Source: Clostridia bacterium (GTDB lineage Bacteria > Bacillota > Clostridia > UMGS1883). From it: DNA of 42,661 nucleotides. Made by a program: the position numbers and the translations under genes. Below, one piece after another: positions 6,461 through 39,527 of the stretch. The notes below the pieces were generated by a model. It saw only the letters and a list, made by a program, of their open reading frames with translations, made no database searches and was not told where the DNA came from. Where the stretch lies: positions 1 to 42,661 of the forward strand of contig JAUNBL010000013.1 of the NCBI GenBank assembly GCA_030527235.1, read 5' to 3'. Within the stretch, counting starts at the first letter, position 1; the number at the start of each line of letters is the position of its first letter.

Positions 6461-6463
6461 CGC

Positions 6464-11158: not shown

Positions 11159-11182
11159 GAAAATATCAACTCCTTTAGTCCA

Positions 11183-11211
11183 ATTATATACCGGAATAAC
11201 AGAAAAATCAA
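11183..11211 (-). promoter_or_regulatory. Promoter of the LUD gene
   Basis: On the minus strand TTGATT (11211-11206), 17 bases, TATAAT (11188-11183). The predicted start falls close to the ribosome binding site, giving a very short leader. The 75-base gap is shared with the divergent kinase gene, for which no clear promoter was seen. Confidence 0.6.
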
Positions 11212-11233
11212 CAGGGAAAGGGCGTATGGAAAA

Positions 11234-12202: not shown

Positions 12203-12231
12203 TTTACTTTTTGTGACCAATACGGTATAAT
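12203..12231 (+). promoter_or_regulatory. Promoter of the tandem solute-binding-protein genes
   Basis: TTTACT (12203-12208), 17-base spacer, perfect TATAAT (12226-12231). The start site should be near 12238, leaving a leader of about 118 bases before the ATG at 12357, unusually long for this window. Confidence 0.65.
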
Positions 12232-12356: not shown

Positions 12357-13976
12357 ATGAAGTTCAAAAAGGCACTTGCGCTTGGCATTTCGGCGGCTCT
12401 TATCGTAACCGCGTTTGCCGCGTGCGGAACACAGGAGGCGGTAATTGACTGGGAAAGCGTTAAAATTGTGGAGGAGCCGGTAACGCTTACATACTGGGTC
12501 AGAAACGATATGTCCGCTTCAGTCTCAAACTACGCTGAAAATGCGGCGTATAAGGAACTTGCGCGCAGAACTAACGTAAACATTGAGTTTTTGCATCCCT
12601 CTGGCGACCAGAATCAGCTTGAAATGCTGATTGCGGCGGATTCGCTTCCCGATATTGTGGAAACTGTGGGGGTTAATGGTCTTCCTGACGGCGGCGACGA
12701 ATGCATAGAAACCAACGTTATAATTCGTCTTAACGAGCTTATAGATGAGTACGCGCCTAACTTCAAAGCGGCGCGTGAGGCGGATGATGAATCGCGCCAG
12801 CTGACTATTACGGACAAGGGCAATATTTACGCGTTCCCCAAACTGCTTGACGGAGAGGAGCTTGCGTGGTCAGGGCCGTCCGTTCGCGAAGATTTGCTTG
12901 AGAAGCTTAACCTTGACGTTCCCGAAACGATTGATGACTGGTATGAAATGCTGACAGCGTTCAAGCAGGACGGTGTGCCGATTCCTCTTACCATTGGCCA
13001 TAACGGTTGGGATACAACGAGTGAGTTCGGCGTATTTATGGGTTCGTTCGGTGTTAACCGCAAGTTTATTTTGGACGAAGAGGGCAATGTCGCATACGGT
13101 CCCATTATGGACGGTTACCGTGAATTCTTGCAGACATTCCATAAATGGTACGAGGAGGGTCTGCTCGATCCTGAATTTAACAGCCGAGAGGACAAGGGCG
13201 ACCAAGCCGCGGCAGGTAATGTGGGCGCAGCGGTGCAGACATCCTTTGGAGAATACGTGACGGTGGCGGCGCCTTATCCGAAGCGCAGCGAAGATTCGGA
13301 TGTCCCCAATTTCAGACAGAAGAACTGGAGAAATCGCGGGTATGAGGCTTCCATAACAACAAAGTGTTCGCCTGAAAACCAGATAATAGCGGTTAAATGG
13401 TTTGATTATCACTACGACCAATCTCTCAAGGGCGGTGCGAGGCTGTTTGACTGGGGTATTGAATCGGTTGACGGTTCTGAAGGCTCCTACACAATGCAAA
13501 AGAGCTCTCTTATAGACGAGGCGTGCCGGACTCTTTCCGCATTCTACGGAAAAATGCCCGATAAGTATGACGAAGAGGGTTACCCGGTTGCGACTCAGAT
13601 AATCCTTGACGACCCGCTCGGATACTGGGGCGGTCTTAACAAGTACAAGGTTGACAATGCGCCCTACTACAAGGATGTTGACAGAGTTCTTGCAAGGTCC
13701 GAAGACGAGGTTGTAAATGAGAAGTATATGGTCTGGTCACAGGCAAATGCTACACAGATGCTCCCCAACTACACTATGACCGATGAAGAAAAAGTGGAGA
13801 ACAAGGAGATAATGGACGCTGTGTCAAGCTATGTAAGCAGCATGTATGTCAGCTTCATTAAGGGCGAAGAAAGCCTTGACAAATGGGATGAATACGTGGC
13901 CACAGTTAAGCAGATGGGCATTGACAGAGCCACGCAGATTAACCAGGACGCTTACAGTCGCTTGAAAGCAAGATAA
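12357..13976 (+). CDS. Extracellular carbohydrate solute-binding lipoprotein (paralogue A)
   Basis: A 539-residue ABC-transporter binding protein. The signal peptide ends in lipobox TAFAAC, so it is expected to be diacylglyceryl-anchored at the outer membrane face. The mature part has family 1 solute-binding features: VTLTYWVRND, SLPDIVE, GNIYAFPKL, VREDLLEKLNL and QKNWRNRGYEAS. It looks like the larger LplA/LipO-type binding proteins of Bacillota that take oligosaccharides. GAAGGAGGAAGG precedes ATG 12357. It is followed by a close paralogue 71 bases on, and no permease lies directly next to it. The nearest are in the cassette starting at 15758, which has its own binding protein. Confidence 0.88.
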   Translation: MKFKKALALGISAALIVTAFAACGTQEAVIDWESVKIVEEPVTLTYWVRNDMSASVSNYAENAAYKELARRTNVNIEFLHPSGDQNQLEMLIAADSLPDIVETVGVNGLPDGGDECIETNVIIRLNELIDEYAPNFKAAREADDESRQLTITDKGNIYAFPKLLDGEELAWSGPSVREDLLEKLNLDVPETIDDWYEMLTAFKQDGVPIPLTIGHNGWDTTSEFGVFMGSFGVNRKFILDEEGNVAYGPIMDGYREFLQTFHKWYEEGLLDPEFNSREDKGDQAAAGNVGAAVQTSFGEYVTVAAPYPKRSEDSDVPNFRQKNWRNRGYEASITTKCSPENQIIAVKWFDYHYDQSLKGGARLFDWGIESVDGSEGSYTMQKSSLIDEACRTLSAFYGKMPDKYDEEGYPVATQIILDDPLGYWGGLNKYKVDNAPYYKDVDRVLARSEDEVVNEKYMVWSQANATQMLPNYTMTDEEKVENKEIMDAVSSYVSSMYVSFIKGEESLDKWDEYVATVKQMGIDRATQINQDAYSRLKAR

Positions 13977-13991: not shown

Positions 13992-14022
13992 GTTTGCGGG
14001 AAGCCTTTGGCTTCCCGCAAAC
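13992..14022 (+). other. 14-bp intercistronic hairpin between the tandem binding-protein genes
   Basis: GTTTGCGGGAAGCC, loop TTT, GGCTTCCCGCAAAC: a perfect 14-bp stem. No U-run follows, so it is more like an mRNA 3'-end stabiliser or processing site than a full terminator. Such elements often raise the amount of an upstream binding-protein message relative to the downstream one. Confidence 0.7.
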
Positions 14023-14047: not shown

Positions 14048-15619
14048 ATGAAAAAAAGGGTTATTCTTTTCGCGCTTACGGTTGTTCTCGCAATTACGGC
14101 AATCGGCTGCGGCGGCGAACAGAGCACTACGGGTACTGCGGACGGCGCAAACACGCCTGAGCTTCTGGGGATTTTTACCGACTGGATAGAACAGACAGAG
14201 GCAAAGCTTACCGATGAGCCCGTTACCTTTACATACTGGGTGAGAAATGACAACGCGGGTGTCGTATCGAACTATGCCGAGCATAGCGTTTACAAAACGC
14301 TTCAGGAACGCACCGGAGTTACAATTGAGTTTTTGCATCCTACGGGTGACCAAAATCAGCTGGATATGCTTATTGCAGCTGGAGCAACGCCCGATTTTAT
14401 AGAAACGGTCAATATGAACAGCATTCCCGAGGGGGCTGATAAAGCGATTGCGAATGGCGTTATCATTCGCCTTAATGAGCTTGTGGAGCAGTACGCGCCT
14501 AATTTCATGCGTGGGCGCAGCCTGTCGGATGAGTCTCGTCGCCTTACATCCACGGACATGGGCAACATATACGGATTCCCAAAACTCCTCGGCGGCTATG
14601 AGGGTTCATGGGGCGGTCCGAGCATCAGGGAGGACTTGCTTGAGAAGCTTAATCTGGACCCGCCCGAAACATTTGACGAATGGTACGAAGTGCTGACCGC
14701 GTTTAAGAATGATGGAATTGAAATTCCGCTTTCTCTGCCGCATGCCGGATGGGACACAGTTAACGAGTTCGGTGTTTTCATCGGCGGATTTGACGTTGCG
14801 AAAGGGTTTTTTGTCAAACAGGACGGCACCGTTGCATACGGTCCGATTGAGGATGGATACAAAAGATTCCTTCAAACTTTCCATAAGTGGTATGAGGAAG
14901 GTCTTATCTACGCAGATTTTGACTCCATAGGCAGAAATGAGAAGAGCACACTTGCCGCAGAAGGCAAAATAGGCGCTGCTGTTGACATCGGGTTCGGTGA
15001 CTATACTACTGTAGCTGTGCCGTATCCTGTTGAAGAAAAGGGTACAGAGGCGCGCTTCAGACAGAAAAATTGGAGAAACCGCGGCTATGAGGCGACAATT
15101 TCTACGAATTGTGCCGACCCCGTACTGGCTGTAAAATGGTTTGATTACCACTATTCTCCCGCGGGCAGCCGTCTTTTCAGCATGGGTGTAGAAGGGGATT
15201 CGTACGTGATTGTGGACAACGAATATGTCTACACTCCCACCATTTATAACAGCGCCGATGGTATAGGAAGGGCGATGCAGAGCCGCCGGCTTGTTAACGC
15301 ACCCTATCTGACGAATCCGGAAGCTACTCCGCTTCAGCTGCCCAAGGAGCTGCGTGAGGAGACGAGCAGTATCAGAATTTGGGAAGGTCCGACAGACGGT
15401 ATGCTTCCGAGGCTTACAATGACGGACGAGGAGCGCGAAGAGTATAATGAAATAATGGATGCAGTGTCCAGCTTTGTAAGTCCTAAGTATGTGTCGTTTA
15501 TAAAGGGAACAGACAGTCTCGACCAGTGGGATGAGTATGTTCGTACGATAAAGAATATGAACATTGACCGCGCGATTGAGATTACACAGACGGCATACAA
15601 CCGCCTGATGGCAAGATAA
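14048..15619 (+). CDS. Extracellular carbohydrate solute-binding lipoprotein (paralogue B)
   Basis: A 523-residue lipoprotein with lipobox ITAIGC. By eye more than half of the residues match paralogue A over long stretches, with shared FTYWVRND, GDQNQL, RLNELVEQYAPNF, IREDLLEKLNL, FLQTFHKWYEEG and RQKNWRNRGYEA. It differs in an extra linker after the lipid cysteine and in the C-terminal third. This looks like tandem duplication followed by divergence in ligand preference. GAGGAGG lies just upstream of ATG 14048. A strong terminator follows, so the two genes form a bicistronic unit without permeases. Confidence 0.88.
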   Translation: MKKRVILFALTVVLAITAIGCGGEQSTTGTADGANTPELLGIFTDWIEQTEAKLTDEPVTFTYWVRNDNAGVVSNYAEHSVYKTLQERTGVTIEFLHPTGDQNQLDMLIAAGATPDFIETVNMNSIPEGADKAIANGVIIRLNELVEQYAPNFMRGRSLSDESRRLTSTDMGNIYGFPKLLGGYEGSWGGPSIREDLLEKLNLDPPETFDEWYEVLTAFKNDGIEIPLSLPHAGWDTVNEFGVFIGGFDVAKGFFVKQDGTVAYGPIEDGYKRFLQTFHKWYEEGLIYADFDSIGRNEKSTLAAEGKIGAAVDIGFGDYTTVAVPYPVEEKGTEARFRQKNWRNRGYEATISTNCADPVLAVKWFDYHYSPAGSRLFSMGVEGDSYVIVDNEYVYTPTIYNSADGIGRAMQSRRLVNAPYLTNPEATPLQLPKELREETSSIRIWEGPTDGMLPRLTMTDEEREEYNEIMDAVSSFVSPKYVSFIKGTDSLDQWDEYVRTIKNMNIDRAIEITQTAYNRLMAR

Positions 15620-15625: not shown

Positions 15626-15663
15626 AAACACAACCGCGACAGGCGCTGCCGCGGTTGTGTTTT
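15626..15663 (+). terminator. Rho-independent terminator after the tandem binding proteins
   Basis: AAACACAACCGCG (15626-15638), ten-base loop, CGCGGTTGTGTTT (15650-15662): a perfect 13-bp stem ending in TTTT. It separates the tandem binding-protein unit from the cassette that starts at 15758. Confidence 0.85.
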
Positions 15664-15757: not shown

Positions 15758-18730
15758 ATGAAAATGGGAAAAGGGAAGCTTGCCAAGAAGTTTCTTGCTG
15801 CGTGCTTGGGGCTTGTTTTTGTGGTGTCCTCGTTTTCGCTCGGAGCAATGGGTGACAGCGGGCAGACGCTGAAGGAGAAGTTTTCCGACAATCTTGCGGA
15901 GGCAGGCACTGTCGCCAGCACCGACCGCTACTATTTCTATGTAAAACAGGAGTACGACGCAAACGGTTATAAGAGCGTTGAAGACGCCAACATTGTGATA
16001 GATGTAATGGCGCCAACGCAGCAAGTGGCGGCGGGCGAAGTGTTTTCGCTCTCTGGAGTTTCGCAGGATACGGCTCGCGTTGACACCGGTCTTGACTTTA
16101 TGGGAGAGGGAACGCTTTTGTGGCCCGATGATGTAGAGTCATACTCATGGAGCGTGAATGTGCCGGAGGAAGGGCTTTATGAGATACAGATAGAATATCT
16201 GCCGCTTGACGGCAAAGGGACCACAATTCAGCGGTCTGTTGCCATTGACGGAGTTGTGCCTTATACTGAGGCATATAATATTCCCTTTGTACGGCAGTGG
16301 GAAGACTACGGCGAAATCCGCTATGACAACATGGGCGATGAAATTCGCCAGAAGAAGCGCGAGGTACGTCAATGGTCAACCATTTCTGTTTGTGATAACG
16401 ACGGATATTATTCCGAGCCGATGCTGTTCTATTTTACAGCGGGAAGCCACACGATAACAATGGGCTATGTTGACGAACCCATGGCGATAAGGAGTATGGC
16501 TCTTGTTTCCCCAAAAAAATACAAGAGCTATGCGGAAGTGGCGCAAGAATATTCAGAAAAAGGCTACAAAGCGGCGGAGGCGGAAGTGATAAAATTCCAG
16601 GCAGAAGAGACGCTTCGGAAATCAGACCAGATTCTTCACCGCACGTATGATTCAGACCCTCTGTGCGAGCCCGACCCGAAGAATGCCGAGCTGTTGAACA
16701 CTATTGGAGGAAGCAACTGGCGTTATGGCAATCAGGAGATAACATGGCAGTTTGAAGTTCCCCAGGACGGATTGTATCAGATAGGCATGCGCGTGGGTCA
16801 GTGGTGGAACGACGGTTTGCCGAGTTATCGCATGATAAAGATAGACGGTGAAGTGCCTTTTGAAGAACTGTTGAATTACGGATTTGATTACGTGCAGGAT
16901 TGGCAGTTTGTCACGCTTGGTGAATCCGAGAGTGACGGGGCGTATCTTTTCTATCTGACAGAAGGCGAGCATACTATAAATATGCGCGCTGTTATGGGTC
17001 CGCTTACGAGCATCGCGCAGGAGGTAATGACCTGCACGCTTAAAATTTCGGAGATATACCGTAAAATCATAATGATAACCGGAACCAACCCCGATGTTAA
17101 CTATGAGTACGATTTGGATAAAACAATACCCAACATACTCGAAGATTTTACTTATCTGGCAGACAAGCTTGAGGAGCTTAGCGGCATACTTACCGGTATA
17201 TCAGTCAAAAAACCGTCTATGGCAAATAACTTTGACACAATAATTGTCCAGCTCAGGGATATGGTCAAAAGACCCGATACAATTGCGAGAAAGATTGATG
17301 AAATATATAATGCGCAAACGTCGCTCGGTAATTACATAACCACACTTAAGACGCAGTATCTGCAGCTTGACTATTTTACAGTGTCGCCTCCGGAGACTCC
17401 GGAACCGCGCCATACGGCCGGATTTTTCAAGAAGGCGGAGTATACATGGATAAACTTTTTGCGTTCGTTTACGAAGGACTATGATACTGTGGGTAATGTA
17501 TACGACCCTGATGCGAACAAGACTATTGACCTTTGGGTCAGCCGCGGAACAGACTGGGCGGAAATTATTAAACAGCTTGCGGACGATGAGTTTACGCCTG
17601 AGAGCGGTATACAAGTTAACATGAACATCATGCCGTCCGGCCAGCTAAGCGCCGGCGCTGTTAACGCTCTTATGCTCGCGATAAATTCAGGTCGTGCGCC
17701 TGACGTGGCAAGCGGTGTGGATGCGACCAGTCCGGTTGAATACGCTATTCGCGGCGCTGCGGCGGACCTCAGCATGTTTGAAGGATACGATGAGGTAGTG
17801 GCGCGGTTTTACCCGACAATAATGACGCCGTATACATATCGCGGCGGGGTTTACGCCCTTCCGGAGCAGATGGACTTTCAGGTGCTTATTTATCGCAAGG
17901 ACATATTGGCGGAACATGGGATTAGAATTCCGGATACTTGGCAGGATCTTTATGAAAAAGTACTTCCCGTGCTGAATCAGAACGGTTTGGAGTTTATGCC
18001 CTCCGGATTTCCGCTGTTCCTTTATCAGAACGGCGGGGCATACTATAACGCGGACGGCACAATGAGCGGTCTGGACACGCCGGAGGCTTATACGGCATTT
18101 AAGGAGTGGACGGAGCAGTACACAAGCTACGGAATGCCGATAGAGGCGAATTTCTTTAACCGCTTCCGCAATGGTGAAATGCCCATGGGAATAATAGGCT
18201 ATGCCGATTATATCAAGGTCACGACAGCGGCGCCGGAGCTTTTTGGAAGATGGGACATATCTGTTGTGCCGGGTCATGTAATGGAGAGCGGAGAGGTTGA
18301 CAGAAGTGTTGGAACGCTTGCGGGTGCGTCTATCATGATACTTGAGGACAGCGATATGAAGGAAGAAAGCTGGGAGTTTGTAAAATGGTGGACGAGTGCA
18401 TCCGTGCAGGAGGAGTTTGGCCGCGAGGTAGAGGCGATGCTCGGTGTAGAGGCAAGATGGAACAGCGCCAATGTTGAGGCATTTGAAAACTCTTCTTGGG
18501 ATGCGGACCATAAAGATGTGATTCTTCGCCAGCTGATGTGGGCAAAGGAACAGCCCGTTGTTTTGGGCGGATATTACACGAGCCGTCACATAACTAATGC
18601 TTGGACACGTGTTGTTACAGGCAACACAATTCCGCGTGATTCGCTGGAACAGGCGGTTAAGGACATAAATAAGGAACTGCGCAACAAACAAGAGGAATAC
18701 GGAGCGGTTTCAGATGAGGGGGATGAATGA
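15758..18730 (+). CDS. CBM-like domains fused to an extracellular solute-binding protein
   Basis: A 990-residue exported protein. After a signal peptide (about 1-30) come two similar beta-sandwich modules, about 40-230 and 270-430. Both contain a W-x-(F/V)-x-V-P-x-(E/D)-G-L-Y-x-I core (YSWSVNVPEEGLYEIQI; WQFEVPQDGLYQIGM) and a ftaGsHtI-like strand, as in CBM6/35-like or DUF-type carbohydrate-binding domains. A helical section (about 430-550) leads to a family 1 solute-binding domain (about 585-960) with GRAPDVASG, YALPEQMDFQVLIYRKD and NGEMPMGI. No lipobox cysteine follows the signal peptide, unlike the two binding proteins upstream. ATG 15758 has AGGGGAAAGG upstream; the longer frame would begin inside the terminator. 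The stop overlaps the permease start (ATGA). Confidence 0.85.
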   Translation: MKMGKGKLAKKFLAACLGLVFVVSSFSLGAMGDSGQTLKEKFSDNLAEAGTVASTDRYYFYVKQEYDANGYKSVEDANIVIDVMAPTQQVAAGEVFSLSGVSQDTARVDTGLDFMGEGTLLWPDDVESYSWSVNVPEEGLYEIQIEYLPLDGKGTTIQRSVAIDGVVPYTEAYNIPFVRQWEDYGEIRYDNMGDEIRQKKREVRQWSTISVCDNDGYYSEPMLFYFTAGSHTITMGYVDEPMAIRSMALVSPKKYKSYAEVAQEYSEKGYKAAEAEVIKFQAEETLRKSDQILHRTYDSDPLCEPDPKNAELLNTIGGSNWRYGNQEITWQFEVPQDGLYQIGMRVGQWWNDGLPSYRMIKIDGEVPFEELLNYGFDYVQDWQFVTLGESESDGAYLFYLTEGEHTINMRAVMGPLTSIAQEVMTCTLKISEIYRKIIMITGTNPDVNYEYDLDKTIPNILEDFTYLADKLEELSGILTGISVKKPSMANNFDTIIVQLRDMVKRPDTIARKIDEIYNAQTSLGNYITTLKTQYLQLDYFTVSPPETPEPRHTAGFFKKAEYTWINFLRSFTKDYDTVGNVYDPDANKTIDLWVSRGTDWAEIIKQLADDEFTPESGIQVNMNIMPSGQLSAGAVNALMLAINSGRAPDVASGVDATSPVEYAIRGAAADLSMFEGYDEVVARFYPTIMTPYTYRGGVYALPEQMDFQVLIYRKDILAEHGIRIPDTWQDLYEKVLPVLNQNGLEFMPSGFPLFLYQNGGAYYNADGTMSGLDTPEAYTAFKEWTEQYTSYGMPIEANFFNRFRNGEMPMGIIGYADYIKVTTAAPELFGRWDISVVPGHVMESGEVDRSVGTLAGASIMILEDSDMKEESWEFVKWWTSASVQEEFGREVEAMLGVEARWNSANVEAFENSSWDADHKDVILRQLMWAKEQPVVLGGYYTSRHITNAWTRVVTGNTIPRDSLEQAVKDINKELRNKQEEYGAVSDEGDE

Positions 18731-19632
18731 TGACAAACAAACAGTCTAAACTCAGCGCTTGGTTTTCAAATTACGGCGTGGGGTATTTGTTCCTGGCTCC
18801 GTTCCTGATACTGCTGTTCATATTTACGATTTATCCGATTTTTCAGGCGATGGGGCTGAGCTTTACATACTATAACATGCTTGAACCGGCGGAATTTATC
18901 GGTTTCAGCAATTACCGCTCGCTTATTTTGGACGATGATATTTTCCTGTTGGCGATTCAGAACACCCTTACGTTCGCGTGTATAGTAGGTCCAATCGGAT
19001 TCTTTGCATCGTTCTTCTTCGCATGGATTATAAACCAGCTCAAGTTCAACAATTTATTCTCGCTGGCTTTCTATGCGCCGTCAATGTGCAGCGGTATTGC
19101 AATGAGCCAGGTTTGGCTCTGGTTCTTCGCATCGGACAGATACGGTCTCATAAACAACACACTTATGAATATAGGATTGATTACAGAGCCGTTGACATGG
19201 AATAAATCGGCAACGCTTATACTGCCGGTTGTAATGATTATTTCAGTATGGATGAGCATGGGTACGGGCTTCCTTGTGTTCCTTGCCGGTTTGCAGGACG
19301 TGCCGCGTGACTTGTATGAGGCAGCTGCGATAGACGGGATAAGCCACAAAACTCAGGAACTCTTTTATATTACGATACCTATGATGAAGCCGCAGCTGCT
19401 CTTTGGTGCAATCAACTCAATAACTTCGTCGTTCGGAGTGTTTGACGTTGCGGTAAGTGTGGCAGGAATGCCCTCGCCAAACTACGCGGCGCACACCATT
19501 GTGGCGCATCTGTATGACCACGCGTTTATACGTTTTGAGATGGGTTACGCTTCGGCGGTCGCTATGGTACTGTTTATCATCACATTTGCGCTGGGGCGCA
19601 TCTGTATGAGAATATTCAGAGAAAAGAATTGA
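18727..19632 (+). CDS. Carbohydrate ABC transporter permease, MalF/UgpA-like (pair 1)
   Basis: A 301-residue integral membrane protein with six predicted segments, the first at about 20-45 (YLFLAPFLILLFIFTIYPIF). The cytoplasmic EAA loop that docks the ATPase is EAAAIDGISHKTQELFYITIPMMKP. It starts within the stop codon of the CBM-binding-protein fusion, so the two are coupled and presumably form one importer with the next gene. No ATPase gene is nearby. Confidence 0.92.
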   Translation: MMTNKQSKLSAWFSNYGVGYLFLAPFLILLFIFTIYPIFQAMGLSFTYYNMLEPAEFIGFSNYRSLILDDDIFLLAIQNTLTFACIVGPIGFFASFFFAWIINQLKFNNLFSLAFYAPSMCSGIAMSQVWLWFFASDRYGLINNTLMNIGLITEPLTWNKSATLILPVVMIISVWMSMGTGFLVFLAGLQDVPRDLYEAAAIDGISHKTQELFYITIPMMKPQLLFGAINSITSSFGVFDVAVSVAGMPSPNYAAHTIVAHLYDHAFIRFEMGYASAVAMVLFIITFALGRICMRIFREKN

Positions 19633-19648
19633 GAAAGGAGGATAAAAA

Positions 19649-20557
19649 ATGACTTCGGAAGCAGTAAATAAGAAACCTAAGGTCAAAGCTATAAAAAAGC
19701 AAAAGCCAAAAAAGTTTAAGTTTTCTCCGGGTTGGGTCTTTGTATACATAATCATGCTGGGACTTGTGTGCTTTACGGCACTTCCGCTGATTTACCTAAT
19801 CTGCACGGCGTTCAAGCCGTTAGACGAGCTGTTTGCTTATCCTCCGCAGTTCTTTGTGCGCAAGCCTACGCTGAAAAATTTCACGGATTTGCTCACCACG
19901 GTAAGCGGTTCGTCCATACCATTTACAAGATATATCTTTAACAGTCTCTTTACCACAGTGTTTACCGTTGCAGGTACGGTTGTGGTCTCAAGCCTCGGCG
20001 CTTACGGGCTTGTAATACATAATCCTCCGGGCTCCAAGGCGATTTTTGCGGTTGTTGTTGCGGCGCTGATGTTTTCCGCACAGGTTACCTCTATCCCGAC
20101 GTATATGGTAATAAACAACCTCGGACTTATAGACACGTATTGGGCGCTAATAGTGCCAAAGCTTGCGGTGGCATATAACTTCTTCTTGATGAAACAGTTT
20201 ATGGAATCCTTCCCCAGAGACATTTTAGAGGCGGCCCGTATAGACGGGGCAAACGAGTGGACGACTTTTGCTAAAATCGTTATGCCGAACATGAAACCCG
20301 CATGGGCGACATTAGTTGTGTTCTCATTTATTTCCAACTGGAATGACTACATGGGACCGCTCATATACACAACCTCGCAGGTTATGAAAACCTTGCCGAT
20401 TGCGCTTAACACCATAGCCGGCGGTGCGGGTACAATCGCTCGTACGGGCGCGATGGGCGCGGCATCGCTTTTGACCACCATGCCTACAATCATAGTGTTT
20501 ACAGCAATGAAGGCGAAGGTTATGGAAACGATGACACATTCGGGCATCAAGGCGTAA
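19649..20557 (+). CDS. Carbohydrate ABC transporter permease, MalG/UgpE-like (pair 1)
   Basis: A 302-residue permease with a basic cytoplasmic N-terminus (KKPKVKAIKKQKPKKFK) and six membrane segments. The EAA loop is EAARIDGANEWTTFAKIVMP. It has a good ribosome site (GAAAGGAGGA) 10 bases before the ATG and pairs with the preceding permease. Confidence 0.92.
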   Translation: MTSEAVNKKPKVKAIKKQKPKKFKFSPGWVFVYIIMLGLVCFTALPLIYLICTAFKPLDELFAYPPQFFVRKPTLKNFTDLLTTVSGSSIPFTRYIFNSLFTTVFTVAGTVVVSSLGAYGLVIHNPPGSKAIFAVVVAALMFSAQVTSIPTYMVINNLGLIDTYWALIVPKLAVAYNFFLMKQFMESFPRDILEAARIDGANEWTTFAKIVMPNMKPAWATLVVFSFISNWNDYMGPLIYTTSQVMKTLPIALNTIAGGAGTIARTGAMGAASLLTTMPTIIVFTAMKAKVMETMTHSGIKA

Positions 20558-20572
20558 ATTTATCAGGAAAGG

Positions 20573-22015
20573 ATGCGTACGCGCATGAAAAGAATAATGC
20601 ACACCGTCTTGTTTGTGCTCGTGCTTGCCTCAATGTTATGTCCCTCGGCGTTTGCCGAGAACCATGACTATGTTTTGGATACTACAGATTCCACAAAACG
20701 GGTTCCGATTCCGAAAACATATGAGGTTTCCCAGGTTATATACAATTTGGGTAATAACGAGTTCTTGAACCAGGCGGAGGATATATTTATTGATAAAAAC
20801 GATTACATCTATGTGGCGGACACAGGAGCCAACCGCATAGTCATGCTTGAGCCTTCCGGTGTCTTTTACCGTGACTTTAAGGGCGATGGGCAGATTAATT
20901 TCAGCGCGCCGACAGGCGTTTACGTTGATGATGACGGCGATATCTTTGTTGCGGATACGGGAAACAGCCGTGTGTGCCATATGACAAGCGAAGGCGTTTT
21001 TGTGGAGGAGTTTATACGTCCTGTTTCCGAGCTTCTGGACGATACGTTTACATTTACGCCGAACAAGGTTTTTGTAAGCCCCACAGGTTTGCTTTATGTA
21101 ATCAAGGGACAAAACTTTTTGAGTATAGATGCGAACAATGATTTTCAGGGATATGTAGGTCAGACCGAGGTAGGATTTGATTTGCGCCGCTGGCTTGTGC
21201 GCATGTTTGCCACTGCGGAGCAGAAAGCCAAGACTGCGAAGGTGCTGCCCGAGTCATACTCTAATTTCGTGGTGGACTCAAGCGGCATGATATACGCGAC
21301 AACCCTCGGAACAAGTTCGCAGATAAGAAAAATAAACAGCGTAGGAAACAATATATTTCCTACAAAGGTGTACGGCGAACCTGTTGCGGACACTTCTACG
21401 GGACTTACCGGGGCGCCGCTGTTTGTGGATATAGCAGTTGACGAGAACGGTATAGTCAGTGTGCTTGAGCAAAAGGGCGGCAAGGTATATCAATACAATC
21501 AAGAGGGAGAGCTTTTAACTGCGTTTGGAGGCAAGGGCACGTGGAAAGGTGTTTTTGACCTGCCGGTGTCGCTTGCGCAAAACAGCGAGGGTAAGCTCTA
21601 TGTACTCGACAGAACGCTGAATAACATTCAGGTCTTTTCTCCCACAATGTTTGTACAGCTGATTAAACAGGCGGTTACCGACTATTCAAACGGTAAGTAC
21701 GACGAGACTTTGGATACATGGAATCAGGTGTTGAAAATAGACGCAAATTACACTCTTGCCCACCAGGGCATAGGCAAGGTCTATATAAAGGAGATGCAGT
21801 GGGAGGACGCGATGCAGGAGTATCGCCTCGTAGAGGACCGCAGCGGTTATTCCAATGCCTACGGGGAGCATACGCACGACATTTTCCGCGATAATTTCAC
21901 CGTGGTGGTAATAATTCTCGTGCTGTTGATTACGGCAATAATACTTCTTTATACCAGGCTTAAAAAGCTTGCCGACAAAATTCTGGAAGGAGAGATTAAG
22001 AATGAACATGTTTAA
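20573..22015 (+). CDS. NHL-repeat propeller/TPR protein with C-terminal membrane anchor
   Basis: A 480-residue protein, exported and then anchored by a C-terminal helix. A signal peptide (about 1-28, ending SAFAEN) precedes NHL-type repeats: DIFIDKNDYIYVADTGANRI, GVYVDDDGDIFVADTGNSRV, and further ones near 290-360. A TPR-like helical pair (about 365-440; GKYDETLDTWNQVLKID, AHQGIGKVYIKEMQWEDAM) follows, then a membrane helix (about 442-463) and a short charged tail. The propeller would face outside. The start could be ATG 20573 or ATG 20585; the ribosome site AGGAAAGG is very close to the first. Position inside the transporter cassette suggests a scaffold or sensor role, which is inference. 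Confidence 0.8.
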   Translation: MRTRMKRIMHTVLFVLVLASMLCPSAFAENHDYVLDTTDSTKRVPIPKTYEVSQVIYNLGNNEFLNQAEDIFIDKNDYIYVADTGANRIVMLEPSGVFYRDFKGDGQINFSAPTGVYVDDDGDIFVADTGNSRVCHMTSEGVFVEEFIRPVSELLDDTFTFTPNKVFVSPTGLLYVIKGQNFLSIDANNDFQGYVGQTEVGFDLRRWLVRMFATAEQKAKTAKVLPESYSNFVVDSSGMIYATTLGTSSQIRKINSVGNNIFPTKVYGEPVADTSTGLTGAPLFVDIAVDENGIVSVLEQKGGKVYQYNQEGELLTAFGGKGTWKGVFDLPVSLAQNSEGKLYVLDRTLNNIQVFSPTMFVQLIKQAVTDYSNGKYDETLDTWNQVLKIDANYTLAHQGIGKVYIKEMQWEDAMQEYRLVEDRSGYSNAYGEHTHDIFRDNFTVVVIILVLLITAIILLYTRLKKLADKILEGEIKNEHV

Positions 22016-22625
22016 GCGTTCGCTTCTCGTTATCTTTCATCCTTCCGAGGCCTTTATCGCCATAAAAAAAGAGAGAGGCCATACGAATATGCGGCCGCTG
22101 TTTGTAATGCTATTTTTGGCGGTGGCGGTACGTGTTGTGTCGATATTCATAGAGCATTTTCCGCTTGCACAGATACTTCCGCGTGACGCTAATATATGGC
22201 TTGAGATTGTACGTATAGTATTGCCGACGCTGCTTGTCATAGCTTCATGCTATCTGGTTACTACGATTATGGACGGCGGCGCAACAATACGAGAAATGCT
22301 GGTGGCCGGCTCATACTGCCTTTTACCGTACATAATACTCTGTCTGCCTCTAACGCTATTCTCGCATCTTATTGATGCAAACAGCGTGGGATTTTACGGT
22401 ACGCTTCATACCATAGTCTGGATTTGGGTAGGACTTTTGTTTTTCACCAGTGTGCGAGATATGAACGAGTACGATTTTGGGGAAACTGTTCTGATATTGG
22501 TGCTTACGGCGCTTACTGTGGCGATTATTGTGGCGCTGGCATTGATGTTCTTTGCACTGACAAGTCAGATTTTTGATTTCGGTACAACACTGCTGCTTGA
22601 AATACGGCTGCTGTTGTTGGGTTAG
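22002..22625 (+). CDS. Yip1-family integral membrane protein
   Basis: A 207-residue protein with about five membrane segments. The Yip1 signature region is visible: GGATIREMLVAGSYCLLPYI followed by a GFYGTLHTIVWIWVGLLFF stretch. ATG 22002 is chosen because GGAAGGAG lies nine bases upstream and the family N-terminus (FKRSLLVIFHPSEAF) begins there. It overlaps the NHL gene by 14 bases, implying coupling. Molecular function is unknown in bacteria. Association with carbohydrate transporters and DUF5696 proteins is something I recall from other Bacillota and could not check. Confidence 0.82.
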   Translation: MNMFKRSLLVIFHPSEAFIAIKKERGHTNMRPLFVMLFLAVAVRVVSIFIEHFPLAQILPRDANIWLEIVRIVLPTLLVIASCYLVTTIMDGGATIREMLVAGSYCLLPYIILCLPLTLFSHLIDANSVGFYGTLHTIVWIWVGLLFFTSVRDMNEYDFGETVLILVLTALTVAIIVALALMFFALTSQIFDFGTTLLLEIRLLLLG

Positions 22626-22636
22626 GAGGGATAACG

Positions 22637-24895
22637 ATGAAGAGAATTAAAAGCTTTGTACTGTGCGTCGTTATCGCCATGACTGCGGTTCTGTGTGCAT
22701 TTGCGGATGAAACGACGACTACGACGACTACAACGACCACTTCAAGCAGAGTAGTGGCGGCGCAGAGTGTAAGCAATGTGCTTGCAACGCTTAATGTGAC
22801 GGAGGATTTAACAGGCAGGCTGGTCGCGCAGAGTGCGAACATGGATCTTTACCTTGTCATGGTGGGGGAGTACCCCAATATTTTGCTTGTAGACCGCAGG
22901 ACGAACCATGAGTGGATGAGTTGGTGCCCTGAGGGTATGCTTATGGGAAGCATGAACAGGTCTTGGACTAAGAAGGTCAACTCAATGTTCACGCTTAACT
23001 ATGTCAAGTATTCCGAAAAGAAGAGCGTGGCTACCGAGATTTCAGCAGCTGACGGCGAGGTCGTGGTGGAGGACATTGAGAACGGCGTTCGTCTGCGTTA
23101 CGATTTTTCAGACATATCGGTTTCGTTAGCAATGGATATTACGCTTGACGGTGACATTTTGGACGTTAGGTTCCCGTTTTCTGAGATTTCCGAGAGCGAG
23201 GACTACGGCATCACGAGCATAGAAGCGATGACAAATTTTGGCGCCAGCGCCGGAGATATGCCCGGTTACGTATTCTATCCCGATGGTTCGGGTGCGCTTT
23301 TAAGAAATAAGAATTACTCCACAGTAGATAAGGCGAGCAAGTATTCGTGGCAGATATACGGTGTGGATAATTACGATATATCAGTCTATGACGTTATGGA
23401 GCGTACAGACCTTCAGCAGGCGTATCTGCCTGTTTTCGGGATAAAGCAAAACGATAGCGCGTATTTGGCGGTTGTGGGTGAGGGCGCATCGGATTCAATA
23501 CTTAATCTCTACCCCAGCGGCTATATTACCGGACTCAACCGCGTAGGAACGGAATTTGTTTACCGCCGTTTCTATAACACTCCGCGTCAGGACGGAGAGA
23601 TAGTGCTTCGCAGCGAGAAAAACATAATTGAGAGCGACCATGAGATTAAGTACATCTTTATTGCCGACGGTGCGGAAGGATACAGTGCGGACTATAACGG
23701 AATGGCAAACGCTTACCGAGACTATCTTCTGGATAACGGGCAGCTTAACAATGCGCTTGAAGATGAAACCCAGATGCCGTTTGCACTGAACCTGTTTATG
23801 GGCATCAACGCGACGAGTCTGCTTTTTGACGAGTACGTCTCGATGACCACGTTTGACCAGGCTGAGGAAATCTACAACGCGCTGAGTGAGAAGGGAGTTT
23901 CAAACATCCTTCTAAACCTTATTGGCTGGCAAAAGGACGGTTACGGCCGCTATCCCGACAAGAATACGCCCGCCTCACAGCTCGGTGGAGCGGGAGCTTT
24001 GAAGGAACTTGCCAAGACGGTGAATACAAGCGGAGGCAGGCTGCTTCTTAACCTGAATGTTACTGACGCGAATTCTAAGTACGGTGGTTTTTCCACCAGA
24101 CGTGACGTTTTGTATACGAACAGCCAGATGCTTGTCACAGATTCAGACAGTGAAAAGTATATCATAAGCCCAACTGTAGCGTTTGAGAACTTTAAAAATA
24201 ACTACGTAGGCAACATCCTTGACGCAGGGGCTTCGGGAGTGACTTTTGAGCGTATAGGCAAATATCTTTACAACGACTATAACGAAGGTCATCCGATTAC
24301 GAGGGGCGGCTCTGCGGATGTTTGGGCGGAGCTTTTCGAGGAGACTAAGAATACTGTAGGTTCTGTGGCGGTCTCGGAAGCGAATGCGTATACGTTTGCA
24401 TCCGCAGACCACATCTACAATGCGCCGATATCGGATTCAGGCTACTTCATTACCGATGAGCGCGTGCCCTTCTATGAAATGGTAGTGCACGGATACATCC
24501 CGTACTCGACCAAGGCGGCAAATTTGTTCCATGATTCCGAGAAGCAGACGCTTGAGTGGGTAGAGTATGGTTGTGTGCCGTTTTACGAGCTCACGCACGA
24601 GGAGTCAAGCAATTTGAAGGATACTGATTATAACGAGCTCTTCACATCCTTGTGCGACGATTGGATAGAACCTGCCGGCGAAAAGTACGCAGAAATGGCG
24701 CAGCGTCTCGGAAACATTTGGAAGCAGCCCATGGTGCGCCACGATAAAATGGACGAGAGCGTTTTCCGTGTGACGTATGCCTCCGGTGACATGGTTTATG
24801 TAAACTATAACAACTACGCAGTCACAGTGGACGGTGTAGCAGTGGAAGCCATGGACTATGCGGTAGTGATGATGAGAGGGGGCGCAGCGCAGTGA
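22637..24895 (+). CDS. Secreted DUF5696-like protein with glycosidase-like architecture
   Basis: A 752-residue exported protein. The signal peptide ends near CAFADE and is followed at once by ten consecutive threonines (26-35). Residues about 50-370 are beta-rich (FVYRRFYNTPRQ, YPDGSGALL). About 380-690 looks like a beta/alpha barrel, with strands such as FALNLFMGINA, NILLNLIGWQKDGYG, RLLLNLNVTDANSKYG and GVTFERIGKYLYNDYNEG. The C-terminal 60 residues form a small beta domain. This N-sandwich, barrel, C-sandwich order is typical of GH36/GH31/GH101-like enzymes, but no catalytic pair can be assigned. It resembles DUF5696 proteins from memory. AGGAGGG precedes the ATG; the end overlaps the next permease (GTGA). 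Confidence 0.75.
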   Translation: MKRIKSFVLCVVIAMTAVLCAFADETTTTTTTTTTSSRVVAAQSVSNVLATLNVTEDLTGRLVAQSANMDLYLVMVGEYPNILLVDRRTNHEWMSWCPEGMLMGSMNRSWTKKVNSMFTLNYVKYSEKKSVATEISAADGEVVVEDIENGVRLRYDFSDISVSLAMDITLDGDILDVRFPFSEISESEDYGITSIEAMTNFGASAGDMPGYVFYPDGSGALLRNKNYSTVDKASKYSWQIYGVDNYDISVYDVMERTDLQQAYLPVFGIKQNDSAYLAVVGEGASDSILNLYPSGYITGLNRVGTEFVYRRFYNTPRQDGEIVLRSEKNIIESDHEIKYIFIADGAEGYSADYNGMANAYRDYLLDNGQLNNALEDETQMPFALNLFMGINATSLLFDEYVSMTTFDQAEEIYNALSEKGVSNILLNLIGWQKDGYGRYPDKNTPASQLGGAGALKELAKTVNTSGGRLLLNLNVTDANSKYGGFSTRRDVLYTNSQMLVTDSDSEKYIISPTVAFENFKNNYVGNILDAGASGVTFERIGKYLYNDYNEGHPITRGGSADVWAELFEETKNTVGSVAVSEANAYTFASADHIYNAPISDSGYFITDERVPFYEMVVHGYIPYSTKAANLFHDSEKQTLEWVEYGCVPFYELTHEESSNLKDTDYNELFTSLCDDWIEPAGEKYAEMAQRLGNIWKQPMVRHDKMDESVFRVTYASGDMVYVNYNNYAVTVDGVAVEAMDYAVVMMRGGAAQ

Positions 24896-25770
24896 GAAAA
24901 TATCTTGACAACATGACGATGGAGCAGAGGCGCAACCTTGAAGGATATGGTTTTATATCGCCGTGGATTTTCGGGACATTGTTTCTTTTCCTTATACCGC
25001 TTGTACAGTCAATTCGTCTGAGTTTCAGCGAAATTACACAGCTCTCCGGATATCAGATGGCGTGGGTCGGATTTGAGAACTACAGAAAACTTTTCCTTGA
25101 GGACGTCAATTTTATAGATTATATGACGCGCGCGATTCAGAATACGCTGATAAACACGCCGATAATCATCATTTTTTCACTTGTCATAGCAATTATGGTG
25201 AATCAGAAAATTAAATGCCGCGCGTTTTTCAGAAGTGCGTTTTTCCTGCCGGTGCTTTTAGGTACAGGTTACGTGATGGACCAGCTTCTTGGCCGCGGCG
25301 TGGCGGAAGAAGCTGTCAGCGCAGCACAGCAGGTCATCTCTCCGGATGGTCCGCTGTCGTATCTCGGAGCGGATTTGGTTATGATGCTCAATCAGTTCTT
25401 AGCGAGAATAACGGAAATATTTTGGAAATCGGGTGTTCAGATTCTGCTGTTTCTTTCAGGGCTGCAGAGCATTTCACCGGCTCTTTACGAATCGGCAAAA
25501 TGCGATGGAGCGACAAGCTGGGAAATGTTTTGGAAGATAACGCTTCCGCTCATTTCCCCGGTAATACTTTTGAATTTCATATACACAATGATAGATTCGT
25601 TTACCGATTCGGCAAACCCGATAGTCGCATATATTCTTGAACAGTCTAAGAGCCAGCAGTTTGAATACGGAGCCGCAATAGGGTGGATATACTTCATATT
25701 CGTATTTGTGTTTGTAATGATAGTATTCGGCATTATTAACCGCTTTACGGTTAATCTGGCTGAAAAGTAA
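24892..25770 (+). CDS. Carbohydrate ABC transporter permease, MalF-like (pair 2)
   Basis: A 292-residue six-segment permease beginning with GTG inside the stop of the DUF5696-like gene. YGFISPWIFGTLFLFLIPLV is the first membrane segment. The EAA loop is ESAKCDGATSWEMFWKITLP, with a less common cysteine where Ile is usual. It resembles sugar permeases often annotated next to Yip1/DUF5696 genes. Second permease of the cassette of this type, only distantly similar to 18727-19632. Confidence 0.9.
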   Translation: MRKYLDNMTMEQRRNLEGYGFISPWIFGTLFLFLIPLVQSIRLSFSEITQLSGYQMAWVGFENYRKLFLEDVNFIDYMTRAIQNTLINTPIIIIFSLVIAIMVNQKIKCRAFFRSAFFLPVLLGTGYVMDQLLGRGVAEEAVSAAQQVISPDGPLSYLGADLVMMLNQFLARITEIFWKSGVQILLFLSGLQSISPALYESAKCDGATSWEMFWKITLPLISPVILLNFIYTMIDSFTDSANPIVAYILEQSKSQQFEYGAAIGWIYFIFVFVFVMIVFGIINRFTVNLAEK

Positions 25771-25785
25771 AAGGAGGAGAGAGTA

Positions 25786-26748
25786 GTGAAAACAGAAGCG
25801 AACAATGCCCATATAAGTAAGTCTCTCTCCGCCGGAGAGAAAGCTAAGAGGATGCTGCACAAAGTCAACATCCCCATGTTCATAGGCCGAGCTGCAATGT
25901 ATATATTGCTTATAGACCTGGCGTTCGTGTTCCTGTACCCGTTTTTGTACATGATAATCACATCTTTCAAATCGCCCGATGATTTGGTGGACATAACGGT
26001 AACATGGATTCCGCGCGAGATATATACGACTAACTTCCGGATAGCGTTTCATTCGCTGAACTACATTCGCGGGTTCATAAACTCCACAGTGGTGACGTTA
26101 GGCTGTGTTGTAGGTCATATCCTCGCGTGTTCTATGATAGCGTACGGCTTCGCGCGCTACAAATTTCCCGGCCGAGATGTTCTTTTTGCTATTGTAATTT
26201 TAACATTGATTGTGCCCACGCAGGTCTTGGTATTCCCGCTCTTTATACAGTACTCTCAGATAGGACTTATAAATACCTTTGTACCGCTGATAGGGCCGAC
26301 TTTCCTGGGATACGGGCTGCGCGGAGGACTCTTTATCTTTATCTTCCGCCAATTCTACCTCGGACTGCCGTATGAACTTGAGGACGCGGCAAAAGTGGAT
26401 GGATGCAACGCGTTCAAAACATACTGGTCCATTGTACGACCGGTGGCGGGCAGCGCAACACTTGTAACAGGTATTCTTGCTATGGTTTGGCACTGGAACG
26501 ATTATCTTGAACCGAACCTCTACATTAACCGTTCAGAGAGTATGATGCTTCCGGCAAATCTGCCAATAATGTATAATGCATTAAACAGCGCCACGCCAGA
26601 GGAATTCATGCTTGACGGAGAACCTATTTACAATGAGGCAACGGTTATGGCAGGCACATTCATGGTCATACTTCCGATTTTGATTGTCTATATGTTCTTG
26701 CAGCGCAGATTCATGGAGGGTATTGAAAGGACAGGTATCGTAGGCTGA
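25786..26748 (+). CDS. Carbohydrate ABC transporter permease, MalG-like (pair 2)
   Basis: A 320-residue permease with a 40-residue cytoplasmic N-terminus and six membrane segments. The EAA loop reads EDAAKVDGCNAFKTYWSIVRP. It starts with GTG 25786 behind a strong AAGGAGGAGA site. Last gene of the cassette, closed by a terminator 33 bases downstream. Confidence 0.9.
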   Translation: MKTEANNAHISKSLSAGEKAKRMLHKVNIPMFIGRAAMYILLIDLAFVFLYPFLYMIITSFKSPDDLVDITVTWIPREIYTTNFRIAFHSLNYIRGFINSTVVTLGCVVGHILACSMIAYGFARYKFPGRDVLFAIVILTLIVPTQVLVFPLFIQYSQIGLINTFVPLIGPTFLGYGLRGGLFIFIFRQFYLGLPYELEDAAKVDGCNAFKTYWSIVRPVAGSATLVTGILAMVWHWNDYLEPNLYINRSESMMLPANLPIMYNALNSATPEEFMLDGEPIYNEATVMAGTFMVILPILIVYMFLQRRFMEGIERTGIVG

Positions 26749-29923: not shown

Positions 29924-32900
29924 TTACCGAAGGTGAACAGCTGTTGTCACTGCACGCATCCGATTATCCCACAGGAACACTCGCAGCGTATCTCCCGCAA
30001 GAAGCGCTTCTTTAAGTGTAAGCGGCAGGAGTTCTTCCTCGCCTGCGTCTACTGCAAGAGAATTCTTTTGCACATAGGCAAGTTCATTATTAGCATTATA
30101 CACCGCAACATATACTGTGGCGTTCAGTGCAGAACCGGAATTTGTCACACGGATTGTGACAGCGGTAGCTTCGGCGTTCATTGTCGCTGAGAGAGAGGCG
30201 GAGATAGATTCTTCCGTGGGTTCTTCCTCGGCGAATTCCATAAGCTGCTTTAGCTGTACACAGGTAAGCACATCGTTGTAAATCCGGAAGCCACTCACTG
30301 CGGCGTCTGCCTGGCCAATCAAATTTTCACCGGAAAGGTCCAGTACACCTGGGTCAAGCTCAATAAACTGGTCAACTAAGCCGTTTATATAGGTTTTTGC
30401 AATGCCGGTATGCGCGTCATAGCTAATCGCCAGATGAGTTTTACCGGGATTGGTCGTGCCGGTAGAGCCGTCGGTTGTGCCGGAATGGTTCTTGTTCCAG
30501 TCGGAATTTGACCATAGATTGCTGCTATTGTAGGAGCTGCCGCCAATTGTAAGTGTCGGAATGTACGATGAGGTGTTGACCTCATACTTCAGTTTTCCAC
30601 CGGCAAGATTGATGGGTGTTCCTCCCCAGTTAGAGGTTTTGCTGAAATCGACAAACGCCGATACGGTAAAGCTGTCACCTGTAACGAGGTTTTCATCCAG
30701 ACGGACTGTTTGCAAACCGCCCGGTGAAAATGCGGCAAGATTGTTGTTGCCGTCAAACTCCTCGTGTTCCATGTCGAAATTGGTGTGAACTGCCGTGGGG
30801 AATCCGTTGGGATAGGTTTTGTTCACAATCCAGAACCAATAGTCACCGTTCATCCAAATCAGGTCAAACATGTCGCCTTCATGCGTTCCGGGAATAGAGA
30901 AGGGACGGATGTTGTTCTTCACGGAATTTTTGGTGATAGGCTCACGTGCAAGTATCTGTCTGCCGTCATCGCTCATCGTGTATTTGATAATTTCATAGAC
31001 AGTGCCAAAGATTCCTTCGACGGGTATCGAACCGTAAATCACATTGGGTGTTTCAGAGTCGAGCGATATACCGCCGCTATAACACTGTTCCGAACTGCTG
31101 AGATGGAAAGCTCCTCCTGCGTCGTCCAGCTTCGTCTTGACCCATTCGCCGCCGACAGGATCCCATTTTGCGTAGTAATAGGTGTGAAGCGTTTTGTCAC
31201 TGCTGATTCTCACCATAGCTATAACCGGATTTTCGCTGCTGTCAAGCTCAATCTGCCATACCCATCCGCGCAGACTGGTAGAACGGTCGTCAACCACAAA
31301 TGAAGGATCGGTCTCGTTATTGGTAATTCTGAAGGGAAGAGCCGTTGTCAAGATATCACCAAGTGCACCCTTAACTGCGACCTGAACGTTACCTTCCGTG
31401 AAGTCGGTAATCTGGATGGCATTGTAGTAAAGCGCAACGGGATTAATATTATCCGGGTGCGTCGAGCTGTATGTGAGGTGTATGGTGTCCTTACCGTTTG
31501 AAACATACTTAGCGTACGGACGGCATCCGCTGCTCTGTGCGCTGGAAGAAACGATTTGACGCGGTCCCCAAGTGAACGCAAAAGTATAATCGTTTTCTGC
31601 ATTTGGCATATTGAGCTGAGCCATGGTAGGATGCCAGTTTGTTCCTCTCCAGCACAGGTATACGTGGTTGAGGTCATCAGAAAGAATAAACGGGTTGGGA
31701 TATGTTGTCGCAGCTGATGTCAGCAGCTTCTTCTCCGCTCCCAGTGTCGTAATATCGCCCGGCTTCTGAGAGACTCGGTAGTAGAAAGCGCTTTCGTCGG
31801 TATGACGTGAATAGATGATTAGAACGTGCTCGTCGGGAAGAACGAGGAATGCCGGAGCATCGTGGTCGTCAGGCTGGAAATTGCTCCTCACAAGGGTTTC
31901 GCTCACTTCACCTGTAAGATGGTTATACTGCGTTGCCTTGATTGAACCGTGAACATCAATATAGCCTACGTATGTCATATCAATAGTTCCGGCGTCGTTT
32001 TTATAATGCAGCGCACGGTCGTCGGCAAACCAGCAGTAAGCGCCTTCCGGAGAAATTTCATAGCCGCTGAAAATATCATCGGGTGAGACCGGCGTGTACA
32101 CCAGTAAAATGTTGTTTTGGGATTCATCCTCAGCGACCTCGACAGAAAGCGTCGAAAGCTCAGGCTTGTATGTATAAATGCGGTCATTGATAGTGATGGA
32201 AGCATCGGGGGTGGATGTATACCGATAAGATGTTCCTATCGCAATCTTAGGAATGGTGACACTGTCTTTCAGCAATTCACCTGTGTCGTCTACGGTTTTG
32301 ACCGTAACAGCCGCGCGTTCATAATATACCGGATCGCCTTCAACATAGACAAGCTCAAGCTGTGCCGCCTGTCCGGAAGTAATCGAACCCCAGTAATTTG
32401 CTCCCGTATTGGTCCGCAGTGCAAAGGAAAGGGTATCGGTATAATCTATAGTCGCTAAAGCTTCGCTGATGTCTATTTCTTTCCACCCAGTCGTGCCATT
32501 GGCGAATGAAAGCGATGCAAGATATCCGGACGAACCAAATTCAGGCGCGTTGTCGTACGTCAGTGTCTGTCCGCTCCAAGTGTTGTCCTCAATTAGGTAA
32601 ATATCCGTAGTTCTTGTTGTCTCGTTTGTCGCCTGCTGCACGTAGAAACGGAGTTTTGCACTGATGATTTTTGAATACCTGTACTCATCCGAAGGCAGCG
32701 AGAATTTAATATAAGTGTCACGCGTGCTGTTTGCGCCCATTGACCCCTCCATACCGGACGTAAGCAGGTATGACGCGGTGCTTTGCGGCGTTGATGTCTG
32801 GGCGCTGTTAGTATAAGCGTTGTCCGAAGCCAAAGCTGATTTGGATATGATGTTGCCGCTGTATTCGGTGCGCTCATATACGATTTTTACCGTGTTGTCT

Positions 32901-37936: not shown

Positions 37937-37982
37937 TTTCACTCGTCCTTTCTGCAAAAGTCTAATCGCCTTTTACAATATT

Positions 37983-39188: not shown

Positions 39189-39481
39189 ACGCTCTTGCGT
39201 ATAACTCCTGCAAACCAATTCCATACAAGCCGAATATGCCGTATACCATTGAGATTCATGCGGATATTGACAACGCAACGTATAGCGCATATGTAATAGG
39301 CAACGACGCTGTGAAGGAGCAGCTTGCGGAAAATTATAAGTTCCGAAGTTCCGCGAAAACAGCGCAAAATCTGGGAAAGATTTGTGTGCGCAGCGGGCAT
39401 AATGTACCGACCGGTGCAATCTACACTGAAAACTTCAAAATATTGTCACAAGAGGCTCGGCAAAAATGGTTCGAGATTTGA
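39062..39481 (+). pseudogene. Out-of-frame continuation of the AraC regulator: ConA/LamG-like C-terminal domain
   Basis: A 139-residue stretch with no ATG near its beginning and no ribosome site, overlapping the regulator frame by 127 bases. It reads as the remainder of a beta-sandwich begun upstream: DAFVGFCSADE, FNLAVQIQPDGLFWAIDA, YKPNMPYTIEIHADIDNATY, GAIYTENFKIL. Joining the frames at the five-T run 39059-39063 (one more T would restore it) gives a single protein of about 421 residues. Either a real mutation, slippage in expression, or a base missed in sequencing. Confidence 0.65.
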
Positions 39482-39501
39482 ACGCATGACTGTCCGCACG
39501 G

Positions 39502-39527
39502 AAAAACGCCGCCGACGTTGTGTTTTT
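39502..39527 (+). terminator. Weak terminator-like hairpin after the regulator
   Basis: AAAAACGC (39502-39509), ten-base loop, GTGTTTTT (39520-39527) with one G-U pair. The stem is short and AT-rich, but it ends in five T and separates the regulator from the next promoter. Confidence 0.4.

Follow-up and report, generated by a model that had tools for sequence, protein, structure and literature searches.

The closest described relatives of the gene cassette reported here are xylan loci of Caldicellulosiruptor. In C. bescii, the locus called XDL is described as having the order xloEFG-X-GH129-axoFGE, with xylan-degrading enzymes next in line, an operon induced on xylan, and XynR and AraR as its predicted regulators (PMC8579813); a XynR operator lies at Athe_0174 (PMC12285236). 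The CUT1 transporters of C. bescii share the ATPase MsmK, and after deletion of msmK the bacterium grows less well on xylan, cellulose, and pectin (PMC8579813). Here, we report an eight-gene cassette at positions 15758 to 26748 (+) of a 42,661-nucleotide stretch of DNA from a member of the Clostridia (contig JAUNBL010000013.1; hereafter, the window), the host genome of which is 2.09 Mb and 82% complete. The cassette is a phylum-wide, largely undescribed variant of the CUT1 import system. We read it as one co-inherited CUT1-type import module for glycan oligosaccharides, with an NHL-Yip1 scaffold and a mostly pseudo-enzymatic DUF5696 protein that presents the chain, and give this reading a probability of about 0.52; that the genetic module itself is real is near certain.

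The eight genes run SBP-P1-P2-NHL-Yip1-DUF5696-P3-P4 (SBP, solute-binding protein; P1 to P4, permeases) on one strand and in one tight run, just as an earlier, sequence-only reading of the window had described them. Its three start-stop overlaps and other spacings below 20 bases were borne out by overlaps of 4 bases (SBP/P1), 14 bases (NHL/Yip1, with Yip1 starting at ATG 22002), and 4 bases (DUF5696/P3) and by gaps of 16 (P1-P2), 15 (P2-NHL), 11 (Yip1-DUF5696), and 15 bases (P3-P4). Pfam matches on the products were SBP_bac_8/1, BPD_transp_1 (four times), NHL (with TPR), Yip1, and DUF5696. The count of only one binding protein had to be corrected: two more, SBPa and SBPb, are encoded immediately before the cassette on that strand, and from this arrangement a transcription unit of ten genes with three binding proteins, running from SBPa to P4, is likely.

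The loci of one family in our sample (f106; L081, L083, and L100) have the XDL order, with X being a fusion of NHL and Yip1 and the gene labeled GH129 being, by position, DUF5696. L100 runs on into a 1347-aa GH43-CBM22-GH43-CBM6 protein of the same size and architecture as published for Csac_2411 XynF (PMC5658599), and because of this match we take f106 to be Caldicellulosiruptor and L100 to be the XDL of C. saccharolyticus. Like the window, the Caldicellulosiruptor XDL (Athe_0174-0185/Csac_2404-2420) holds SBP-permease-permease, NHL-Yip1, DUF5696, and permease-permease in that order; unlike the window, it has NHL and Yip1 fused, an SBP after P4, and xylan-degrading enzymes within the operon. 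In the window, NHL and Yip1 are separate genes, both additional SBPs lie upstream, and the operon lacks a xylanase.

The search for DUF5696 covered 40 relatives and 398 genomes from across the phylum, and flanking DNA was retrieved for 60 matches; 80 further named loci came from a DNA scan seeded with a closer alignment (A2), which biased them to Paenibacillus (mostly Paenibacillus and Cohnella, with clostridial genomes and Thermobacillus also present). Such a neighborhood analysis of DUF5696 and Yip1 across Bacillota had been proposed with the sequence-only reading, and it found a conserved order, nearly constant in the 60 relative and phylum loci and in the 80 named ones. An order unique to the window was thereby rejected, and because the same order recurs across the phylum, that of the window is not due to chance. 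Yip1 lies immediately 5′ of DUF5696 in 137/141 loci, and P3-P4 immediately 3′ in 134/141; the four loci without Yip1 (L095, L096, L120, and L121) hold stand-alone DUF5696 or GH129/GH101/DUF6259-type proteins. Among the 137 cassettes, P1-P2 is found upstream in 116 and downstream in 6, and flanks are too short for judging P1-P2 in 12; both pairs occur together in 122 of the 125 evaluable cassettes. The genome of the window carries a second full cassette (L102), the proteins of which are only 27 to 46% identical to those of the first.

As DUF5696 had served as the seed for these loci, the same 398 genomes were also searched with a Yip1 profile (A6). Best matches reached at least 143 bits in 37 genomes, that of the window included, and about 45 bits or less in 18 others; compared by eye, the 37 are exactly the genomes with strong DUF5696 matches. 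The odds of such a match by random co-occurrence are near 10^-51 (computed for 36 of 398), a figure that common ancestry weakens. Five genomes (G101, G174, G204, G121, and G079) each have seven or more Yip1 matches of the cassette type and represent lineages with an expanded cassette system. Distance matrices of seven cassette parts, compared over 37 complete cassettes, were correlated at r values of 0.81 to 0.95, most tightly for NHL-Yip1, DUF5696, P3, P4, and the large cassette SBP, and the correlation of P1 with P3 was reached in 0 of 2000 permutations. Many cassettes other than that of the window have carbohydrate-active enzymes (CAZymes) nearby, and these vary (GH3, 42, 10, 43, 26, 28, 5, 9, and 2 and lyases), so that the cassette would seem to be a general-purpose device that goes with a variety of glycan loci.

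The permeases are UgpA-like P1 (18727 to 19632, +) and P3 (24892 to 25770, +) and UgpE-like P2 (19649 to 20557, +) and P4 (25786 to 26748, +). P1 and P3 fall in separate clades, as do P2 and P4, and the two permease pairs are therefore old and distinct. An EAA loop was found by pattern match in P1 to P3 and read by eye in P4 (EDAAKVDG). An SBP with paired UgpA/UgpE (MalF/MalG)-type permeases bearing EAA loops is what marks a CUT1 sugar importer. As in CUT1 importers that share an MsmX/MsmK ATPase, no ATPase gene lies in the cassette; the single OB_MalK (MalK-type ATPase) match in the 82%-complete host genome is on another contig (C56), consistent with ATPase sharing. Unlike those systems, the cassette has two permease pairs, a giant SBP bearing carbohydrate-binding modules (CBMs), and three extra membrane or extracellular proteins.

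Two pairs might simply mean two independent, ordinary ABC importers on a common transcript, with the middle genes serving P3-P4 alone. XloEFG and AxoFGE are treated as two CUT1 transporters in the published annotation (PMC8579813), and there are often two SBPs, one per pair; three copies do without P1-P2, and the distances of P1-P2 correlate with those of DUF5696, P3, P4, and NHL-Yip1 at r values of 0.81 to 0.88, versus 0.92 to 0.95 among the latter. Nonetheless, the pairs stay together in nearly all evaluable cassettes and diverge in parallel, and we regard full independence as unlikely, if a serious contender. An independent response of the two pairs, which the sequence-only reading had named as evidence against a joint machine, is not what has been described for the equivalent operon of C. 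bescii, all of which is reported to be induced by xylan (PMC8579813).

The DUF5696 protein (22637 to 24895, +; PF18952, 552 bits) has a signal peptide, a Thr-rich linker, a beta-sandwich, a TIM barrel, and a C-terminal beta domain. In Foldseek, the full length of its AlphaFold2 (AF2) model (pLDDT, 85.3; pTM, 0.89) matched ZgGH129 (5opq; E value, 1.9e-34) and NagBb (5wzn; 1.5e-30), followed by GH101 enzymes, and profile searches agreed in matching 5opq and 5wzn. On the predicted model, the overall fold is that of GH129/GH101 (NagBb, ZgGH129/DagB, and EngBF), with the same sandwich, barrel, and C-terminal domain. The catalytic residue common to ZgGH129 and NagBb is Asp486/Asp435 (PMC5698469), and 8rzk is a D486N complex of ZgGH129. 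Unlike these enzymes, the window protein has Arg539 at the catalytic Asp position and Ser580 at the acid/base Glu position, as placed by MAFFT and an independent profile-profile alignment together with predicted strands (534 to 537 and 576 to 580, at the ends of which the two residues lie); the NagBb position was mapped through stand-alone homologues. Asp and Glu are both kept in six of six stand-alone DUF5696 proteins, versus Asp in 25/58, Glu in 10/58, and both in 5/58 cassette copies from relatives and the phylum. Conservation has shifted to a PDGSG loop, which is cassette specific, and a YGxD motif of the N-terminal sandwich, neither of which occurs in stand-alone proteins. An assignment as an ordinary GH129 enzyme was not accepted, the catalytic residues being missing in the window copy, and from residue patterns DUF5696 is likely a pseudo-enzyme in the window and in most sampled copies, though not in all of them. 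As a separate observation, the DUF5696 proteins outside the cassette (L121 and L202 to L206) keep both catalytic residues and look like active enzymes.

DUF5696 could instead be an active extracellular glycosidase that uses other residues or another mechanism and trims oligosaccharides at the membrane ahead of two ordinary importers, NHL and Yip1 having a stabilizing part. Its full GH129-like fold would suit this, as would barrel residues D607 and E643, each near-invariant or invariant, the 16/138 cassette copies with both canonical residues, and the GH129 label of the C. bescii gene (PMC8579813); ZgGH129/DagB has itself been proposed to stand outside GH129, with differing catalytic residues (PMC5698469). 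However, the canonical positions vary freely in the cassette copies of the phylum sample when set against the stand-alone proteins, and E643 sits beside the canonical pair in most of the latter also and so need not be catalytic. We consider this explanation rather improbable.

The NHL protein (20573 to 22015, +; NHL, 56 bits) has a signal-peptide-like N terminus, a six-bladed propeller, TPR-like helices, and a C-terminal transmembrane helix (about residues 435 to 467), as judged from hydropathy and the AF2 model of a homologous fusion. Yip1 (22002 to 22625, +) is, by hydropathy, a polytopic membrane protein with a Yip1 domain (PF04893; 35.0 bits against a cutoff of 28.6); we took its start as ATG 22002, behind a GGAG Shine-Dalgarno sequence, the listed TTG 21969 merely giving the longest open reading frame (ORF). 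The two are separate genes in the window and a single polypeptide in 37/141 loci, and this fusion is strong evidence of their physical coupling. The AF2 model of one fusion (L180; mean pLDDT, 82.8; pTM, 0.66) shows a propeller, TPR-like helices, a transmembrane helix, and a helical bundle; its best 50 Foldseek matches included propeller-type structures and none for Yip1. In copies that lack P1-P2, too, the trio of NHL, Yip1, and DUF5696 stays next to P3-P4, which suggests docking of the trio on P3-P4. The literature agrees with the earlier statement that the roles of the three are not established: the C. bescii paper has only "X" and "GH129" (PMC8579813), no mention of DUF5696 was found in the literature searched, a search for YIP1 family, NHL repeat, and ABC transporter permease found no paper, and the Paenibacillus xylan and xanthan literature yielded nothing on the trio.

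The cassette SBP (15758 to 18730, +) is a giant of 990 aa. A signal/anchor segment is followed by two modules that are CBM35/6-like by profile, and a helical linker then leads to an SBP domain in the C-terminal part, at about residues 599 to 887. The CBM label given to it earlier stands weakly: CBM35/CBM6-type modules in the N-terminal half were matched by the family profile and in some members, and the window sequence alone matched no CBM family in Pfam. The best natural solved matches of the modules were a CBM35-containing cycloisomaltooligosaccharide glucanotransferase and an exo-glucosaminidase CBM35. A length of about 900 to 1160 aa is kept across loci, usually before P1. Many cassettes have a second, ordinary SBP of about 400 to 650 aa just upstream of the giant SBP or after P4; in part of the phylum sample, the giant SBP was the only one within the fetched stretch. 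The window has SBPa (12357 to 13976, +; 539 aa; no Pfam match of its own) and SBPb (14048 to 15619, +; 523 aa; SBP_bac_1, 43.6 bits), putative lipoproteins that are tandem paralogues with 49% identity. Between the end of SBPb and the start of the cassette SBP are 138 bases, and a homologue of SBPb is likewise upstream in the closest relative (L106).

Each of the two upstream SBP genes is followed by a strong hairpin without a clear U-tract. That at 13992 to 14022 (+; 14-bp perfect; fold z, -4.65), between SBPa and SBPb, would be an mRNA-stabilizing or -processing element; the other, at 15626 to 15662 (+; 17 pairs; fold z, -3.47), lies between SBPb and the giant SBP. An Rfam scan of the window returned zero matches. 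A consensus scan placed a sigma-70-like site (TTTACT-17-TATAAT; 12203 to 12231, +) ahead of SBPa, as a candidate start of the transcription unit. Further upstream is a ROK-family protein, a sugar kinase or regulator (11129 to 12160, +; Pfam ROK, 217 bits; ORF start uncertain, at TTG), which is possibly a local regulator and presumably belongs to the cassette system. This ROK protein and a receptor-like layout, in which a propeller outside the cell is linked to a domain in the membrane, are what could recommend NHL, Yip1, and DUF5696 as a glycan sensor reporting extracellular substrate to a transporter or regulator rather than as a transport scaffold, but the Pfam scan found no kinase, HAMP, or other known signaling domain among the cassette proteins, the trio remains with P3-P4 while outer neighbors vary, and the C. 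bescii operon already has XynR and AraR as predicted regulators (PMC8579813), so that we think a sensor very improbable.

In the import module that we favor, the giant SBP and the ordinary SBP(s) would capture polysaccharide fragments at the cell surface, and the membrane-anchored NHL/TPR protein, either associated with the Yip1 bundle or fused to it, would be a scaffold for binding proteins and permeases. We infer that DUF5696 is mainly a non-catalytic carbohydrate-recognition protein that presents the chain to the importers, with trimming in a minority of copies; those keeping Asp and Glu could be presenters or enzymes. P1-P2 and P3-P4 would be two importers for related fragments, powered in common by an MsmX/MsmK-type ATPase with its gene elsewhere, and uptake of oligosaccharides by the window cassette would be ATP driven, by analogy with msmK of C. 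bescii. Substrate would be set by the neighboring CAZymes and vary by copy, as with xylan in Caldicellulosiruptor. A physical complex of the cassette parts is held with moderate confidence.

Several points weigh against this account. The NHL-Yip1 fusion is the sole direct evidence for a physical complex, and common phylogeny inflates both the distance correlations and the co-occurrence. The copies without P1-P2 (3/137; L069, L070, and L097) lack it despite at least 4.5 kb on each flank, so that a copy need not hold both permease pairs in cis. In the Paenibacillus-rich named set, the catalytic Asp is kept in 76/80 and both residues in 11/80, and with the 16/138 overall that retain both, some DUF5696 copies may be active. 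No CAZyme that would point to a substrate lies within the window operon. Of the membrane-associated machine proposed in the sequence-only reading, the joint assembly gains from the conserved order, the fusions in 37/141 loci, the correlated divergence, and the exact genome co-occurrence of Yip1 and DUF5696. The single SBP falls away, and processing within the machine is doubtful in most sampled copies, in which the GH129/GH101 catalytic pair is incomplete.

A polysaccharide utilization locus of Gram-positive bacteria would hold CAZymes and a local regulator together; what the window has is the ROK gene upstream of the cassette and a GH36 alpha-galactosidase some 14 kb downstream of it, next to an AraC gene of its own. 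There, AraC regulator, PfkB kinase, and GH36 stand in a row (38217 to 42602, +) as a possible separate galactoside locus. On the opposite strand to the cassette, a giant protein of 2677 aa (29924 to 37957, -) combines a BNR_4 domain with seven stretches of CBM96. A 965-aa protein (146 to 3043, +) matches CBM_4_9 and has three SLH domains. A probable sugar-nucleotide synthesis cluster (5456 to 10538, +) consists of consecutive genes for a nucleotidyltransferase, a GDP-mannose dehydratase-like protein, a DegT aminotransferase, and a TPP enzyme. A single ORF (4515 to 5687, +) is an apparent TrmD-MGMT fusion, joining a TrmD tRNA m1G methyltransferase to a C-terminal O6-methylguanine-DNA methyltransferase DNA-binding domain.

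The SusCD utilisomes of Bacteroidota offer an analogy, in that surface glycan capture, accessory binding or processing proteins, and import are combined; they differ in being built of unrelated proteins around a TonB-dependent channel, whereas the cassette has ABC importers. Tentatively, and with the odds against it, the cassette could encode a stable Gram-positive "utilisome," in which NHL-Yip1 is the membrane scaffold for two ABC importers, a degenerate glycosidase has been turned into the subunit that presents the chain, and Yip1 is a transporter-docking module; Bacillota would use it for a wide range of glycans. If the import module is as we propose, many glycan-degrading Bacillota (37/398 sampled genomes, several with multiple copies) would import oligosaccharides through a multipart assembly, the three central proteins of which are without an assigned function. 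For DUF5696, there would then be a fold, a set of partners, and, in most of the copies sampled, a likely status as pseudo-enzyme, and a bacterial Yip1 protein is tied to transport through gene fusion and neighborhood. All told, it seems to be a common, though uncharacterized, route for the uptake of plant and other glycans that the cassette provides.

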